NCBI GenBank assembly: GCA_022825065.1
Contig: JAJDYR010000022.1
Span: 161,021-225,020, forward strand
Direction: 5' to 3'
Source of the DNA: a bacterium
GTDB taxonomy: Bacteria > UBA8248
Length of the DNA: 64,000 bases
Part shown: positions 40,052-48,163 of the stretch, one piece after another
Layout of the letters: every line of letters starts with the position of its first letter
How positions within the stretch are numbered: the stretch's first letter is position 1
The notes under the pieces: model-generated
What the model saw: only the letters and a program-made list of their open reading frames with translations
Told to the model about the DNA's origin: nothing
Databases searched by the model: none
Made by a program: the position numbers and the translations under genes

Positions 40052-40882
40052 CTAAAGCGGCCCCGTCAGTGAATAGCGCCCATCGGCGCAAGCGACTTTT
40101 CCGGATTTCACGAACCTCTCCAGATGCAACTCAATCACGCTGGCGCCCAGCTCTCTCTGGCGCTCCGGCAAATCCTGATATATGAGGTCCGCTATCCTGG
40201 CGGGCGAATCGTGTCCTGCCTCCAGCGCTTCCAGATACTGCGCATCGCGCTTCTTGCGGTGTTCGATAAGCTCGTCGATCCTGGCAACCGGGTCCTCGAT
40301 CACCGGCCCGTGGCCCGGGTAAATGAGGCGAGGCGCGAGTTTCTTCACCTTCTCCAGCGATTCGAGGTAATCACCCAGGTTCCCCTTGGGTGCGGTCACC
40401 GCCGTCGTCGAGGGGAGAAGAACGTTGTCGCCCCCCAGAAGAATCCTCTCCTCCTCCCACCAGAACGAAAGATGGCCGGGAGAATGGCCCGGCGTGAGGA
40501 TGGCCTCCAGGCGCATTTTTCCCAACTCGACGAATTCTCCTTCCCTTATCGGAGAAACCGGCAGACCCGGCTGTTCCTCTTCGAGCAATCGCATCTCCTG
40601 GGGATGGGCGTAAGCCGTAACGCCGAACCTATCGCAGACCGCCTTGGCGCCGCCGGAGTGGTCGAAGTGGTGGTGGGTCAGAACAAGTTTTTCCAACTCA
40701 CCTCCGGCGCGCGCTTCCACACAGGAAAGCACCTCGGGAATGCACTCGCGGTAGCCCGCGTCGAAGAGAATGAAAGGTCCCTCCCCGATGAGGATCACCT
40801 CCACGTGGTCCATGAACGAACCCTGAGGGGCTACCAACCTGTGGCTCTGAATAAGGTGTGATGCGGTCGATTTCACGTTCAA
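40052..40882 (-). CDS. MBL-fold metallo-hydrolase
   Basis: The product is 276 aa. The signature HHHFDHSGGAKAV is preceded by PFILFDAGY. Further metal ligands are in TPGHSPGHLSFWWEEERILLGGDNVL and PGHGPVIEDPVARID. A C-terminal winged-helix-like part (YQDLPERQRELGASVIELHLERFVKSGKV) resembles LACTB2-type proteins. It is a dinuclear zinc hydrolase acting on thioesters, lactams, RNA or similar; substrate not determinable. Confidence 0.92.
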   Translation of the reverse strand: MNVKSTASHLIQSHRLVAPQGSFMDHVEVILIGEGPFILFDAGYRECIPEVLSCVEARAGGELEKLVLTHHHFDHSGGAKAVCDRFGVTAYAHPQEMRLLEEEQPGLPVSPIREGEFVELGKMRLEAILTPGHSPGHLSFWWEEERILLGGDNVLLPSTTAVTAPKGNLGDYLESLEKVKKLAPRLIYPGHGPVIEDPVARIDELIEHRKKRDAQYLEALEAGHDSPARIADLIYQDLPERQRELGASVIELHLERFVKSGKVACADGRYSLTGPL

Positions 40883-41062
40883 GAAAAACCCCTCTCAAAA
40901 TTCCATCCTGCATGGGAAAACCACACAGGGCCGCGGCTCGATGAAGCGCCGGAGTGCTCTTGCCCGCGCCAGTTGCGGGTAAGGCGCTGCCCTTCCCTCG
41001 CCTTTTGGCCAATGTGTGCGAATAATCGGCACGAATCATCGCCTGCCGGAAAAAAACGGCAT

Positions 41063-41090
41063 TTGACAGACACCGTGAATCTGTTATGTT
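41063..41090 (+). promoter_or_regulatory. Promoter of the ABC transporter operon
   Basis: TTGACA, 16 bp, TATGTT, about 160 bp upstream of the first binding-protein start. Confidence 0.6.
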
Positions 41091-41110
41091 CCCTACCACA
41101 AAAATTCGCA

Positions 41111-41157
41111 GACAGTAAAGAAAACAACCGATTATTGCGTCGTTTTACTTTACTGTC
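41111..41157. promoter_or_regulatory. Inverted repeat in the ABC operon leader
   Basis: GACAGTAAAG (41111-41120) is perfectly inverted as CTTTACTGTC (41148-41157), with AAAAC/GTTTT pairing further inside after a mismatch. It begins about 20 bp past the -10 box, so it could be an operator or an RNA hairpin in the leader. The second binding-protein copy does not carry it. Confidence 0.55.
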
Positions 41158-41249
41158 CGAGAGTTGTTCTGGTGAATGCGAAATAAGCGAACCTTTTCAG
41201 TTAACCGGGGGCTTGGCCCTCTCTCCATTCCTGCATGAGGAGACTTTCG

Positions 41250-42356
41250 ATGAAATCCCGTATCCGTTACTTCGTTGCCGCCGTCGCGGCTCTGGCCGTC
41301 TTCGCATCGGGCGCACTCGTATCCGAAGCGATGATGAAGAACCAGAAAGAGCTCGTGCGCGCGGCGAAAAAAGAGGGCGCCGTCACGCTCATCAACCCTC
41401 TGTTCAGCGACCGCACCGCCAAGCGCATGGGACCGGCCTTCGCCAAGAAGTACGGCCTGGGCGACGGCTTCAAGTTCCGCAACCTGCGCAAGGGCACCGG
41501 CGCCACCGTATCCCAGGTTCGCCAGGAGATACGGGCCAACAAGTTCACCGTCGACGTCCACATGGTGAGCGCGCCCGGCTTCTTCGCCTCTGCCCAGAAA
41601 CGCGGCGTATTCCAGAAGCTCGACAGCGCGGAATGGAACAAGCACTTCGCGGCGGTGATCAAGAAGGCCAATCAGTACGCGAACTACCCCTACGTCGTGA
41701 CGCCTCTGGCCTACACCTTCCAGCCCGTGTGGAACACTTCGTGTCCCGGTATGAAGAACCTGAACGTGACGTCCTATCCGGACACCATTACCAAGGATTT
41801 GACGGGCAGGAACATCGCCGGCGACATCACCAAGAGCTTCACCTACACCAACACCGTCATCTCGCTCATCGAGAACGGCATGGACATGAACAAGTACTGG
41901 GACGCCCTGAAGGCCCTGAAGCCCGTCGTCATGTTCCGCACCGAGCCGAAGATGCAGGTGCTCATCAACTGCGAGCGCGGCCTCGACCCCTGGAACCTCT
42001 CGGGCCGTGTGTACCAGAACGTACTCAAGAAGCCCGACCTCGCCAAAGTCCTCAAGATAGGCTACTACAAGGAAGGCCAGGTCATGCTGGGCAACCAGGT
42101 CGCCGCAATTAAAGGAGCACCGAACCCCAACGCCGGCAAACTGCTGGTTGAATTCCTTCTCACCAAGGAAGGCACCGACATCTACGTGGAAGGCGAGGCC
42201 ATATACAGCTTCCGCGCCGGCTACAAGCCGCCCAAGGCCGTGCAACCCTACCTCCTCGACCTGAGCAAGCACAAGCTTCTGGGGCTCAAGGATTGGGTGG
42301 CGGCTCAGAAGCAGTTCAAGAAAGTGCGCGGTGAATTCATCAAGCGCTTCAAGTAG
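41250..42356 (+). CDS. ABC transporter extracellular solute-binding protein, copy 1 (ferric/organic ion type)
   Basis: The product is 368 aa from the internal ATG preceded by AGGAG (the track's first ATG contains that site). The signal peptide is MKSRIRYFVAAVAALAVFAS. The fold is COG1840-type (KKEGAVTLINPLF, GTGATVSQVRQEIRANKFTVDVHMV, LLVEFLLTKEGTDIYVEGEA). It captures a ligand (ferric ion, polyamine, sugar or phosphonate-like; not identifiable) in the periplasm for the downstream permease. It is about 90 percent identical to copy 2 by eye. Confidence 0.92.
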   Translation: MKSRIRYFVAAVAALAVFASGALVSEAMMKNQKELVRAAKKEGAVTLINPLFSDRTAKRMGPAFAKKYGLGDGFKFRNLRKGTGATVSQVRQEIRANKFTVDVHMVSAPGFFASAQKRGVFQKLDSAEWNKHFAAVIKKANQYANYPYVVTPLAYTFQPVWNTSCPGMKNLNVTSYPDTITKDLTGRNIAGDITKSFTYTNTVISLIENGMDMNKYWDALKALKPVVMFRTEPKMQVLINCERGLDPWNLSGRVYQNVLKKPDLAKVLKIGYYKEGQVMLGNQVAAIKGAPNPNAGKLLVEFLLTKEGTDIYVEGEAIYSFRAGYKPPKAVQPYLLDLSKHKLLGLKDWVAAQKQFKKVRGEFIKRFK

Positions 42357-42384
42357 GACGCTTTATAAGTCATCGATCGGAATG

Positions 42385-42416
42385 GGTGGGAGTCCGCAAT
42401 GGACTCCCACCTTTCT
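42385..42416 (+). terminator. Hairpin after binding protein copy 1
   Basis: GGTGGGAGTCC-GCAAT-GGACTCCCACC is a perfect 11-bp stem followed by TTTCT. It may act as a partial terminator or an mRNA 3'-end stabiliser. Confidence 0.7.
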
Positions 42417-42672
42417 GTATTAAATAAGAAATACCGCGGCGCGCCATGCCGCGAAGCTTCCGCCAGGGCAGGCATTCTAACACCAACGGGGCGGAGCCTT
42501 CGCGATATAGCGCGCGGTTAGCGTTTTACAATTACCGAACATCCCCGCGAATCCAGGAGACGGTTCGCAGGCGTGTTGCTTTTGGAAACGGCGTTCTTTA
42601 TATTCGATAGTTCTTATTCCCGAAAAGACTTGCGTTTCCAGGATTCGCAGGAAAGGTTGTATCCACAAGACG

Positions 42673-42729
42673 ATGGCTATCAACACTACAGCACCGCGAA
42701 TCGACATCGCTCCCCCAAATAGAAATTTA
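42673..42729 (+). pseudogene. 5' stub of the permease gene left by the duplication
   Basis: ATGGCTATCAACACTACAGC (MAINTTAPRIDIAPPNRN) mirrors the start of the real permease (MATDTAAPQIDVAPPRG). The preceding leader, CGTGTTGCTTTTGGAAACG and CCCGAAAAGACTTGCGTT, is also shared with 44112-44175. The similarity ends after about 18 codons and the sequence changes into the leader of binding protein 2. Confidence 0.8.
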
Positions 42730-42779
42730 TTCAACCGGGGGCTCGTCCCCCACTCCATTCCTGCATGAGGAGATTTTCG

Positions 42780-43886
42780 ATGAAATCCCGTATCCGTTAC
42801 TTCGTTGCCGCCGTCGCGGCTCTGGCCGTCTTCGCATCGGGCGCGCTCGTATCCGAAGCGATGATGAAGAACCAGAAAGAGCTCGTGCGCGCGGCGAAAA
42901 AAGAGGGCGCCGTCACGCTCATCAACCCGCTGTTCAGCGACCGCACGGCCAAGCGTTTGGGTCCGGCCTTCGCCAAGCATTACGGCCTGGGCGACGGCTT
43001 CAAGTTCCGCAACCTGCGCAAGGGCACCGGCGCCACCGTCTCCCAGGTTCGCCAGGAGATGCGGGCCAAGAAGTTCACCGTCGACGTCCACGTGGTGAGC
43101 GCGCCCGGCTTCTTCGCAGCGGCCCAGAAACGCGGCGCGTACCACAAACTCGACAGCGCCGAGTGGAACAAGCACTTCGCGGCGGTCATCAAGAATGCCG
43201 GCCAGTACGCGAACTACCCCTACGTCGTGACGCCGCTGGCCTACACCTTCCAGCCCGTGTGGAACTCCGCCTGCCCCGGCATGAAGGATCTGAACGTGAC
43301 GTCCTATGCCGACACCATCTCCAAGAAGGTGATGGGACAGACCATCGCCGGCGACATCACCAAGAGCTTCACCTACACCAACACCGTCATCTCGCTCATC
43401 GAGAACGGCATGGACATGAACAAGTACTGGGACGCCCTGAAGGCCACGAAGCCCGTCGTCATGTTCCGCACCGAGCCGAAGATGCAGGTTCTCATCAACT
43501 GCGAGCGCGGCCTCGACCCCTGGAACATTACGGGCCGCGTCTGGCAGAACGTCCTCAAGAAGCCCGACCTCGCCAAAGTCCTCAGGACCGGCTACTACAA
43601 AGAAGGCCAGGTCATGCTGGGCAACCAGGCGGCCGTCCTGAACGGTGCGCCGAACCCCAACGCCGGCAAACTGCTGGTTGAATTCCTTCTCACCAAGGAA
43701 GGAACCGACGTATACGTGGAAGGCGAGGCCGTCTACAGCTTCCGCGCAGGCTACCAGCCGCCCGCGGCCGTGAAACCCTACCTCCTCGACCTCAGCAAGC
43801 ATAAGCTCCTGGGTCTCAAGGACTGGGTCGCCGCGCAGAAGAAGTTCAAGGCGACGCGCGCCGAATTCATCAAGCGCTTCAAGTAG
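42780..43886 (+). CDS. ABC transporter extracellular solute-binding protein, copy 2
   Basis: The product is 368 aa, the tandem paralogue of copy 1 with the same signal peptide and Shine-Dalgarno (AGGAG, ATG 42780). Differences cluster in a few surface segments (for example SYADTISKKVMGQTIAG versus SYPDTITKDLTGRNIAG, and GYQPPAAVKPYLL versus GYKPPKAVQPYLL). The ligand-lobe core is nearly unchanged, so specificity may be similar or slightly diverged. It is followed by a hairpin and the permease. Confidence 0.92.
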   Translation: MKSRIRYFVAAVAALAVFASGALVSEAMMKNQKELVRAAKKEGAVTLINPLFSDRTAKRLGPAFAKHYGLGDGFKFRNLRKGTGATVSQVRQEMRAKKFTVDVHVVSAPGFFAAAQKRGAYHKLDSAEWNKHFAAVIKNAGQYANYPYVVTPLAYTFQPVWNSACPGMKDLNVTSYADTISKKVMGQTIAGDITKSFTYTNTVISLIENGMDMNKYWDALKATKPVVMFRTEPKMQVLINCERGLDPWNITGRVWQNVLKKPDLAKVLRTGYYKEGQVMLGNQAAVLNGAPNPNAGKLLVEFLLTKEGTDVYVEGEAVYSFRAGYQPPAAVKPYLLDLSKHKLLGLKDWVAAQKKFKATRAEFIKRFK

Positions 43887-43913
43887 GACGCTTTATCGAT
43901 TGCTACTCGGAAC

Positions 43914-43942
43914 GGGTGGGAGTCCACAAGGGGCTCCCGCCC
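43914..43942 (+). terminator. Hairpin after binding protein copy 2
   Basis: GGGTGGGAGTCC-ACAA-GGGGCTCCCGCCC has 12 pairs including G-U pairs. It is the diverged counterpart of the hairpin at 42385 and sits between the binding-protein and permease genes. The remaining 260 bp to the permease shows no gene. Confidence 0.65.
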
Positions 43943-44202
43943 TTCCGGTTTCAGTAATGAAGCGATGCAATTCGCGGCGCGCCATGCCGCGAGGGTTCAG
44001 CCGATGCTGCCGCTCAGGCGCAAGATAAGCGGATCCTTCGCGATGTAGCGCGCAGCGAACTTTTTCCAGAAGACAAACTCCCCTGCGAATCCGCGTGACG
44101 TTTCGCAGGGCGTGTTGCTTTTGGAAACGACCTTCTTTATATTCGTTTGTTCGTATTCCCGAAAAGACTTGCGTTCGCAGGAAAGGTTGCATCAATAACA
44201 TT

Positions 44203-45951
44203 ATGGCTACGGATACCGCAGCACCTCAAATAGATGTAGCCCCACCCAGGGGCTGGCGCACGTGGTTCACGCAGGAGAACATCATCACGACCATCGTCGG
44301 CCTCATCGTGGCGGTGGCCGTCATCGTCCCGCTGGTCGCGCTCGTCATCAACAGCTTCCTGGTGCTCGACGACCTGGGGTTCGACACCGAATGGGGGCTT
44401 CAGAACTACAGGGATATATTCCACGGCCACGTTATCCGAAAGGCTCTCGTCAACACCGCCATCATCAGCACGGGCTGCACCATACTGGCCACGCTTCTGG
44501 GCGTATCGCTCGCGTGGATCAACGCGAGGACAAACTGCCCGTTCAGGGAGCAGCTCGAGCCCTTCAACCTCATCCCGTTCTTCCTGAGTCCTTTCGTGGG
44601 CGCGATCGCCTGGCACAACCTGGCCTCCCCCAAGGTCGGCCTCATCAACAACATGGCGAAAACCGCCTTTGGTATTGATTTTCCGCTTTTCAACGTCAAC
44701 AACCTGTGGGGCGTCATCTGGGTGACGGGGATTTTCTTCGCCCCCCTCGTCTACCTGTTCGTGGTCGGCTCGCTCAGGCGCATGGACCCATCGCTGGAAG
44801 ACAGCGCGCGCACGACGGGAGCGGGCCTGTTCCGCACCACCATGACAATCACCCTGCCCCTGGTGACGCCCGCGATTCTCTCGGGCGCCATCATCGTGTT
44901 CGTGACGACGGCAGGCGAATTCGGCGTCCCCTTCAAGCTCTCCGCCCCCTTCGGGTGGGAGACGCTGACCACGCAGATATTCACGAAAGCGGTGGGTGAC
45001 GACGCGAACCACTACCTCGGCGCCGCCATGAGCATGGTGGTGGGCGTGGTGACGGCGTTCTTCATCTGGATTCAGCACAGAATCATCGCGCCGCGCTCCT
45101 ACACGACGGTGACCGGCAAGGGCTTCCGGCCGAACCTCATCGACCTGGGCCGGTGGCGGTGGCTCGCATTCGCCTATAACTTGTCTTACGTGTGCGTCGC
45201 CGTGTTTCTTCCCATCATCTGTCTCTTCTTCGTGAGCCTCCATAAAATATGGTCGGGGAGAATCATCTGGTCGGAACTCACGTTCTGGAACTACCAGAAG
45301 GTACTCTTCTTCTGGTGGCCCGAGAGCATCCAGGCGGCCACCAACGGCATCATCAACAGCTTCATCCTCGCGTTCGGCGGCGCTTCCATCGCCATGGTGG
45401 TGGCCATCATCGTGAGCTACATGATCCACCGCACGAAGGGCTTCGGCGCGCGCCTGCTCGATTTCCTGAGCGTCATTCCTATCGGCTTCCCCGGCATCGT
45501 GCTGGCGATGGGCGTACTCGTCACCTACATCAGGACGCCCATCTACGCCACGCTCTGGATACTGCTGCTCGGCTACATTACGCGCTTCTTCCCGTACGGG
45601 CAGCGGAACATCTCCTCCATCATGATGGCCGTATCCGAAGAACTCGACCAGAGCTCGCGCATGGCGGGGGCTTCGTGGCTCACGACGCTGCGCAGAATCA
45701 CCATCCCGCTGCTCAAGCCGGGCATCTTCGCCGGGTGGATTCTGCTGTTCGTCATTTTCTTGAGGGAACTCTCCATCTCCATCATACTCTATTCCGCTGG
45801 CACGGAGACGCTCTCCGTCGGCGTGTATTATCTCTCGAACTTCGAAAACGAACCCATGACGTCGGCTCTTTCCATCGCGCAGACGGTCGCGTTGCTAATC
45901 TGCATCGTCATATTCAGGAAAGTCGCCGGCAAAGAGGCGCTGACGGCGTAG
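44203..45951 (+). CDS. ABC transporter permease, fused two-domain (FbpB-type)
   Basis: The product is 582 aa from ATG 44203 (MATDTAAPQIDVAPPRG), not the track's 44095. There are about 12 hydrophobic segments in two homologous halves, each with the EAA-type loop (LRRMDPSLEDSARTTGAGLFRTTMTITLPLV and AVSEELDQSSRMAGASWLTTLRRITIPLL). Together the halves form the membrane channel of a ferric-type importer. The 4-bp gap to the ATPase indicates coupling. No strong Shine-Dalgarno is visible. Confidence 0.93.
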   Translation: MATDTAAPQIDVAPPRGWRTWFTQENIITTIVGLIVAVAVIVPLVALVINSFLVLDDLGFDTEWGLQNYRDIFHGHVIRKALVNTAIISTGCTILATLLGVSLAWINARTNCPFREQLEPFNLIPFFLSPFVGAIAWHNLASPKVGLINNMAKTAFGIDFPLFNVNNLWGVIWVTGIFFAPLVYLFVVGSLRRMDPSLEDSARTTGAGLFRTTMTITLPLVTPAILSGAIIVFVTTAGEFGVPFKLSAPFGWETLTTQIFTKAVGDDANHYLGAAMSMVVGVVTAFFIWIQHRIIAPRSYTTVTGKGFRPNLIDLGRWRWLAFAYNLSYVCVAVFLPIICLFFVSLHKIWSGRIIWSELTFWNYQKVLFFWWPESIQAATNGIINSFILAFGGASIAMVVAIIVSYMIHRTKGFGARLLDFLSVIPIGFPGIVLAMGVLVTYIRTPIYATLWILLLGYITRFFPYGQRNISSIMMAVSEELDQSSRMAGASWLTTLRRITIPLLKPGIFAGWILLFVIFLRELSISIILYSAGTETLSVGVYYLSNFENEPMTSALSIAQTVALLICIVIFRKVAGKEALTA

Positions 45952-45955
45952 GACT

Positions 45956-47053
45956 ATGAGCGAAAACAACTATCTCCAGGTCGACCATCTCGTAAAATAC
46001 TTCGGCGACGACCGCGCCGTGGACGGCATTTCCTTCGGCATTCCGGAGGGGAAATTCCTGACCCTGCTCGGCCCCTCGGGCTGCGGGAAGACCACGACGC
46101 TCATGTGCATCGCCGGCCTCCACAAACCGGATGCGGGCGAGATCCGCATCGGCTCGGACCCGGTCACCTCGATAGAAAAACGCATCAACACCGCGCCGGA
46201 GAAGCGCAACATCGGCATGGTGTTCCAAAGCTACGCCATCTGGCCGCACATGGACGTGACCCAGAACGTGGCCTACCCGCTCGAGATACGCAACATGGCG
46301 CAATCCGAGATCGACGACCGCGTCGCCGAGGCGCTCAAGATCGTCGGCCTCACCGACATGGCGGACAAAAACGCCACGCAGCTCTCGGGCGGCCAGCAGC
46401 AAAGGGCGGCCCTTGCGCGCGCGATGGTCTTCCGGCCGCGCCTTCTGCTCTTCGATGAGCCGCTCAGCAACCTCGATCTCAAGCTCAGGGAGCAGATGCG
46501 CGTCGAACTCAAGCGCATCCAGCACGAAATCGGCATCACCTCGATCTACGTGACGCACGACCAGGCGGAAGCCCTCGTGATGAGCGATGAGATTATCGTG
46601 ATGAGCAAGGGACACATTGAACAAACCGGCGGCCCCCATAACATCTACGCGCGGCCCGTCAACAGGTTCGTGAGCAATTTCATCGGCGTGGCGAACCTGA
46701 CCGAGGGCCGAATCGTCGGTAACGGCGGAGGGGGCGCCGGGGCCATCGAGATATCCCAGGGCGGTGAGAGCGTGCAACTGCCCTGCCTGCTCGCCGACGG
46801 CCTCTCGGAGGGCGACGACGCCTATCTCTCCGTTCGCCCCGAGAACGTGGACGCATCGCGCAAGCCCATGGACGGCCCCCGGATCGAGGGCGAGGTGATT
46901 CAATCCGTCTTTCTGGGCAACTGCCTCGACTGCCGCGTGAAGTGGGGAGAATTCGAGTGGAAGGTGCTGGCGCATTCGAGAGAGCGCCTGCGCGTGGGCG
47001 AAAAGGTGTACGTGCGCCTCGACCCCGACCATACACTGGCCGTCAGACCCTAG
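45956..47053 (+). CDS. ABC transporter ATP-binding protein 1
   Basis: The product is 365 aa. Walker A is GPSGCGKTTTLMCIAGL, the signature is LSGGQQQRAALARAMV, Walker B is LLLFDEPLSNLD, and the switch His is in YVTHDQAEAL. A C-terminal TOBE-type domain (LADGLSEGDDAYLSVRPENV) follows. It energises import through the fused permease. Related to FbpC/PotA/MalK-type subunits. Confidence 0.95.
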   Translation: MSENNYLQVDHLVKYFGDDRAVDGISFGIPEGKFLTLLGPSGCGKTTTLMCIAGLHKPDAGEIRIGSDPVTSIEKRINTAPEKRNIGMVFQSYAIWPHMDVTQNVAYPLEIRNMAQSEIDDRVAEALKIVGLTDMADKNATQLSGGQQQRAALARAMVFRPRLLLFDEPLSNLDLKLREQMRVELKRIQHEIGITSIYVTHDQAEALVMSDEIIVMSKGHIEQTGGPHNIYARPVNRFVSNFIGVANLTEGRIVGNGGGGAGAIEISQGGESVQLPCLLADGLSEGDDAYLSVRPENVDASRKPMDGPRIEGEVIQSVFLGNCLDCRVKWGEFEWKVLAHSRERLRVGEKVYVRLDPDHTLAVRP

Positions 47054-47065
47054 AGGATAGATAGC

Positions 47066-48163
47066 GTGTCATTCGTCGAAATCTCGAAACTGGTGAAATC
47101 ATTCGGGCCCGAAGTGGCCGTGGCGGGAGTCGACCTCTCCGTCGAACAGGGGGAGTTCGTCACCCTTCTGGGGCCTTCGGGCTGCGGAAAAACCACGACG
47201 CTCAGGTGCATCGCCGGCCTCGAGCATCCCGACAGCGGCGACATTCAAATCGAGGGAGATTACGTCACCTCCGTCACGAACGAAATTTTCCTGACGCCCG
47301 AAGAAAGAAACCTGGGCATGGTGTTCCAGAGCTACGCCGTCTGGCCGCACATGACGGTCTTCGACAACGTGGCCTACGGCCTGAGGATCCGGCGCGAAAC
47401 CAGGGCCGCCATCAAGGAAAAAACGACGAAGGCGCTCGACCTCGTGGGTCTGGGCCATCTCGCCGAGCGCTACGCCACCAAGCTCTCAGGCGGGCAGCGC
47501 CAGCGCGTCGCCCTCGCCCGCGCCATCGTCTACAACCCCAAGGTGGTGCTCTTCGACGAACCCCTGAGCAACCTCGACGCCAAGCTGCGCGAACACATGC
47601 GCATCGAACTCACGCGCCTGCAGCACGACGTGGGCATCACATCGATCTACGTCACGCACGACCAGACCGAGGCGCTCGTGATGAGCGACAGGGTCGTGGT
47701 GATGGACAAGGGCGTCATCCAGCAAATCGGCGACCCCGAGAGCATCTACGCCGAACCGACGAACGCGTTCGTGGCGAATTTCATCGGCGTGGCGAATCTC
47801 ATGGAGGGCAAGCTGCTCGGCCACGACGGGGAACTGACGGACCTCGAAATTCCCCTGGGCGACGGAAGCGCTCCCATCCGCCTCAAGGCCACCGGCGCGG
47901 AGGGAGCGCCCGTAGGCGCGAAGATCATCCTGAGCATCCGCCCCGAGGACATCCTGCTGCACCTCGAGAAACCGGCCGAGGCGATGAACCTCTTCGAAGG
48001 CGAGGTGATCGACACCGTCTATCTGGGCAACTTCCTCGACTGCCAGGTCCGGGTCGGCCCGCACGAGGTCGGCGTGCAGATCGACCACTTCGAGGAACTC
48101 GACACCGGCCAGAAGGTGTATCTCTCCTTCACGCCCGACCACGGCTTGTGTCTGACTGAATAG
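47066..48163 (+). CDS. ABC transporter ATP-binding protein 2
   Basis: The product is 365 aa, starting at GTG with GAGGA upstream. Motifs are GPSGCGKTTTLRCIAGL, LSGGQRQRVALARAIV, VVLFDEPLSNLDAKL and YVTHDQTEAL, plus the TOBE-like C terminus (IILSIRPEDILLHLEK). It is a diverged paralogue of the preceding ATPase. Both are complete, so the importer may use a heterodimer, or each may serve a different permease. Confidence 0.95.
   Translation: MSFVEISKLVKSFGPEVAVAGVDLSVEQGEFVTLLGPSGCGKTTTLRCIAGLEHPDSGDIQIEGDYVTSVTNEIFLTPEERNLGMVFQSYAVWPHMTVFDNVAYGLRIRRETRAAIKEKTTKALDLVGLGHLAERYATKLSGGQRQRVALARAIVYNPKVVLFDEPLSNLDAKLREHMRIELTRLQHDVGITSIYVTHDQTEALVMSDRVVVMDKGVIQQIGDPESIYAEPTNAFVANFIGVANLMEGKLLGHDGELTDLEIPLGDGSAPIRLKATGAEGAPVGAKIILSIRPEDILLHLEKPAEAMNLFEGEVIDTVYLGNFLDCQVRVGPHEVGVQIDHFEELDTGQKVYLSFTPDHGLCLTE

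Follow-up and report, generated by a model that had tools for sequence, protein, structure and literature searches.

An inherited, non-exact tandem duplication of a binding-protein gene with a permease stub between the copies

Genes, features and repeat structure of the locus

The window, which is the whole 64,000-nucleotide stretch of bacterial DNA analysed here, contains two binding-protein genes arranged head-to-tail, followed by a gene for a double-domain permease and two genes for ABC ATPases. The features of the region are as follows.

41063..41090, + strand: sigma-70-like promoter of binding protein 1, TTGACA-16-TATGTT (consensus scan, 10/12)
41203..42717, + strand: duplicated unit, copy 1, comprising the binding-protein leader, gene, spacer and first 15 permease codons
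41206..41220, + strand: 5'-UTR hairpin of binding protein 1, GGGGGC-TTG-GCCCTC (predicted stem)
41250..42356, + strand: binding protein 1, 368 aa, the faster-evolving copy
42384..42412, + strand: terminator-like hairpin 3' of binding protein 1 (scan and relatives)
42578..42606, + strand: copied permease promoter-like site, TTGCTT-17-TATATT, upstream of binding protein 2 (candidate)
42673..42768, + strand: permease stub, with 15 permease-homologous codons in a 31-codon frame, then TGA
42718..42732, + strand: duplication junction, AATAGAAATTTATTC
42733..44247, + strand: duplicated unit, copy 2
42736-42750: 5'-UTR hairpin of binding protein 2
42780..43886, + strand: binding protein 2, 368 aa
43914..43942, + strand: terminator-like hairpin 3' of binding protein 2 (fold and alignment)
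44117..44145, + strand: permease promoter-like site, TTGCTT-17-TATATT, in its original position (conservation)
44203..45951, + strand: double-domain permease, 582 aa, single intact copy (Pfam BPD_transp_1)
45956..47053, + strand: ABC ATPase 1 (PF00005 and TOBE_2)
47066..48163, + strand: ABC ATPase 2, older tandem paralogue of ATPase 1 (PF00005 and TOBE_2)

The start codons of the two binding-protein genes (41250 and 42780) lie 1530 bp apart, as do those of the stub and the permease (42673 and 44203), in agreement with the direct tandem repeat of 1530-bp register that an earlier, sequence-only reading had proposed. Alignment of the two units, which that reading had suggested, located them at 41203-42717 and 42733-44247, with the junction at 42718-42732 between them. 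The repeat is far above chance (300 nt at 95%), and similarity drops to 47% immediately left of the duplicated unit. The duplication had been called exact; we found 87.1% identity over 1506 aligned bases with three indel events, which is short of the near-identity expected of an exact or recent duplication. Divergence is clearly non-uniform along the units, which share their leader: the coding sequences of the binding proteins are 91.1% identical without indels (89% at the protein level), the spacers are 75.2% identical and hold all three indel events, and the 15 codons shared by stub and permease are 66.7% identical. The permease starts nevertheless fall exactly 1530 bp apart because the spacer indels cancel. 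Head-to-tail homologous units joined by one novel junction are the arrangement left by a tandem duplication.

Between the copies, as had been described, lies a permease remnant that runs into the leader of the second binding protein. It had been credited with 18 codons, from a quoted peptide of 16 letters; the open frame in fact comprises 31 codons (MAINTTAPRIDIAPPNRNLFNRGLVPHSIPA), about 15 of which are homologous to the permease. Its TGA (42766-42768) is 11 nt 5' of the second binding-protein start and overlaps the ribosome-binding region of that gene. The junction sequence is unlike permease codons 16-20 and has no clear match to the sequence before binding protein 1. No exact repeat at the breakpoints was evident by eye when the sequences of relatives were used, and no further copy of the junction was found elsewhere in its own genome.

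The ATPase genes (45956-48163) form a tandem pair of their own, older than that of the binding proteins, with blocks of 75-78% identity at a spacing of 1101 bp; this pair is also present in the relatives whose sequence spans the region.

Inheritance, divergence and recombination of the copies

We compared the genome of the window (G000) with six other species of its genus (G001-G006). G001 has the same two-copy layout as the window, and G002-G006 have one copy each in the same syntenic neighbourhood, which is the unduplicated arrangement. In G001 the junction breaks the permease at the identical codon, and the derived letters AAT-GAAA are common to G001 and the window; the G001 stub, of 24 codons, is homologous to that of the window. 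G001 is also the closest relative of G000 (rpoB 96.3%, EF-G 96.0%; 90.5-93.5% for the others). Since this sister species has the same junction, the duplication is inherited and no assembly artefact; and since the two genomes are nearest to each other by both genes and share the junction, the simplest reading is a single duplication already present in the ancestor from which both descend. The earlier view that there was one tandem duplication, joined within the 5' end of the permease, is thus upheld by the G001 junction and by the undivided arrangement in the single-copy relatives, with the amendment that the event was neither exact nor recent, because the copies differ at 98 coding sites and arose before the species split. 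The records of G001 and the single-copy relatives are mostly Nitrospinota metagenome-assembled genomes, and several isolate names suggest sponge samples; the bacterium is probably sponge-associated.

The ratio dN/dS between the copies is ~0.27 (dN 0.060, dS 0.224); both binding proteins therefore seem constrained, and this value suggests that both would be functional. The copies differ at 40 amino acids, of which only a handful involve residues that the family strongly conserves. Copy 1 evolved faster than copy 2, with 60-65 unique changes against 17-26 (chi2 13-28 across every outgroup).

Identity between the copies is clustered. Those of G001 are identical over CDS 70-887 (818 bases), with 25 differing sites outside this tract (permutation p<1e-4), and those of the window have a 5' tract of ~149 bases that holds one of the 98 CDS differences (permutation p 1e-4 to 0.003, by penalty). 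Such clustering is characteristic of conversion between paralogues, and we interpret the tracts in both genomes as gene-conversion signatures; the G001 contig is at ~9x coverage, so assembler homogenisation may contribute to its tract. The second copy, spacer and 5' permease of G001 resemble those of G005/G006 rather than of its sister G000: the permease-proximal spacer is 93% like that of G005 and only 75% like that of G000, whereas the upstream flank is G000-like. To judge from these sequences, the mosaic indicates recombination with another lineage. We conclude that the duplication was followed by gene conversion and by cross-lineage recombination, events that the sequence-only reading had not covered. 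As in the concerted evolution of bacterial duplicates (PMC6053082; PMC12046097), paralogues within one genome share identical tracts, but here the tracts are partial and the pair is limited to one lineage, unlike whole-gene, long-term concerted evolution. We found no literature combining tandem duplication, a substrate-binding protein, an ABC transporter and gene conversion.

Regulation and transporter family

The promoter at 41063..41090 lies outside the duplicated unit, aligns in all seven species with largely conserved hexamers and is the only one that the promoter scan supported. The TTGCTT-17-TATATT site is below the scan threshold; it falls in an aligned block in six of the seven species, being missing in G002, and is a candidate promoter from conservation, not from the scan. 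Because the unit carries the permease-upstream region, copy 2 stands behind it. Binding protein 2 is probably under permease-type expression, and binding protein 1 would have the original promoter. It is possible, though unlikely, that the arrangement amounts to a promoter swap, in which binding protein 2 would be permease-controlled, the stub (31 codons; 24 in G001) would act as a short upstream frame influencing its translation, and the pair would be kept for differential expression and not for dosage. Every relative has a hairpin at the position corresponding to the terminator-like hairpin 3' of the binding-protein gene (-25.8 to -36.8 kcal/mol). A short 5'-UTR hairpin immediately before the ribosome-binding site is predicted in all nine leaders of the genus (eight of them distinct), among which sequence changes mostly keep the pairing. 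No Rfam family matched within 40800-44400.

Family matches of the encoded proteins are spread between 2-aminoethylphosphonate, spermidine and ferric importers, all of them below cut-off. The permease has PhnU2 as its best NCBIfam match (146 bits, cut-off 593), the binding proteins score 20-22 bits against equivalog cut-offs of 310-395, and the PhnT2/PotA-like ATPases score 333 and 353 bits (cut-off 458). Assignment by family to the 2-aminoethylphosphonate importer PhnS/PhnU2/PhnT2 was rejected, since every score lay below the curated cut-off. The predicted binding-protein model (pLDDT 90.6) has the two-lobed ferric-type fold of FbpA, HitA and MctA, with a Foldseek probability of 1.00 and a query TM-score of 0.75 to MctA (7f6q). 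The locus resembles PhnSTUV, FbpABC and HitABC in gene order, in its PhnU2-like double permease and PhnT2/PotA-like ATPases and in this fold; it differs from them in that its NCBIfam matches are far under the cut-offs and its identity to the nearest solved structures, metal-citrate and ferric binding proteins, is only ~17%, so that a substrate is not assignable. The two near-identical binding proteins most likely serve one ABC importer of the Fe3+/aminoethylphosphonate type.

The argT and hisJ genes of enteric bacteria encode paralogous binding proteins that share one translocator, and SBD1 and SBD2 of GlnPQ are likewise two paralogous binding domains serving one translocator. Compared with both systems, the proteins described here are 89% identical and have a permease stub between their genes. 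More broadly, the feeding of one translocator by multiple distinct substrate-binding proteins is an established arrangement (PMC8025302).

Several related loci were also seen. In other members of the family (L034, G011:C35:69604-73668; L033, G013:C85) a related cassette appears to be repeated in the order binding protein, permease, binding protein, ~3.2 kb apart, with proteins 50-51% identical to the window binding protein; this layout suggests repeated duplication in this transporter family. The genome of the window itself encodes a 65%-identical binding protein with no matching permease within ~1.4 kb (L003, G000:C4:138406-139503), a possible orphan receptor with counterparts in other species of the genus. 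A 61-67% paralogue in G004 (L031, G004:C200) is broken by a TGA or frameshift and may be a pseudogene or an assembly error.

Origin and meaning of the duplication

The explanation that we consider probable as a whole begins with an ancestral operon of a binding protein, a double permease and two ATPases. One tandem duplication of ~1.5 kb, reaching from just upstream of the 5'-UTR hairpin to about permease codon 15, would already have taken place in the last ancestor that the window's species shares with G001, or earlier; the copies would since have diverged while swapping tracts by gene conversion. The copied permease-upstream region would place binding protein 2 under a promoter and leader of permease type, with binding protein 1 keeping the original promoter, and both proteins would deliver the same ligand, or similar ones, to a single permease, providing more receptor dosage and perhaps slight specialisation.

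The phylogenetic position of copy 1 bears on the age of the event. Over CDS 193-1104 its branch falls outside every other copy of the genus (support 89/90; 92/97 for the 3' part), a moderately supported placement that is left unaccounted for if the duplication arose only in the G000/G001 ancestor, and an AU test rejects a clade of copies 1 and 2 for the last 216 nt (p=0.02). Both results would fit a much older duplication, at or before the genus radiation, with scarless loss of a copy through the 1.5-kb repeats in the five single-copy species. Several family-wide residues present in copy 1 and absent from every other genus copy point the same way, as do a dS between the copies (0.22-0.25) similar to that between members of the genus for this gene and the identity of only 72% between the copy-1 spacers of G000 and G001. 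However, the AU test over CDS 193-1104 as a whole does not reject the clade (p=0.22), copy 1 is a fast branch whose outside placement may reflect attraction, and several losses would be needed; we regard the older origin as a serious contender, at somewhat less than even chances. Import of the 3' two thirds of copy 1 from an unsampled lineage by homologous recombination, which would make its divergence no evidence of age, is in our view somewhat unlikely: exchange of this kind occurs at the locus, as in the G005-like spacer and G000-like flank of G001, but the genomes searched yielded nothing that resembles a donor.

The shared junction weighs against two other accounts. Metagenome-assembled genomes can join strain variants, and two variants of a single gene might have been placed in series; the chance of this is close to negligible, given the same junction in the independently assembled G001, a window contig of 377 kb and 40 amino-acid differences between the copies. 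Two separate duplications at a hot spot, one in G000 and one in G001, are already disfavoured; they would agree with the grouping of within-genome copies in the whole-CDS tree, but that grouping results from the conversion tracts, and a junction at the same permease codon with the same derived letters makes such events very improbable.

We conclude that the tandem duplication at this locus is real and inherited but not exact, that its junction is well defined, and that it adds one more instance of a process already known. As a bacterial gene duplication it is ordinary in kind, with a history that can be read unusually well, and it changes no general picture. The locus also urges caution in dating, as the extent to which tandem copies have diverged reflects the time of conversion as much as that of duplication. 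The region offers a clear snapshot of the duplication of a receptor gene, with one junction, a clipped neighbour as its scar, conversion tracts that lie in different places in the two sister species, and exchange with a third lineage by recombination.
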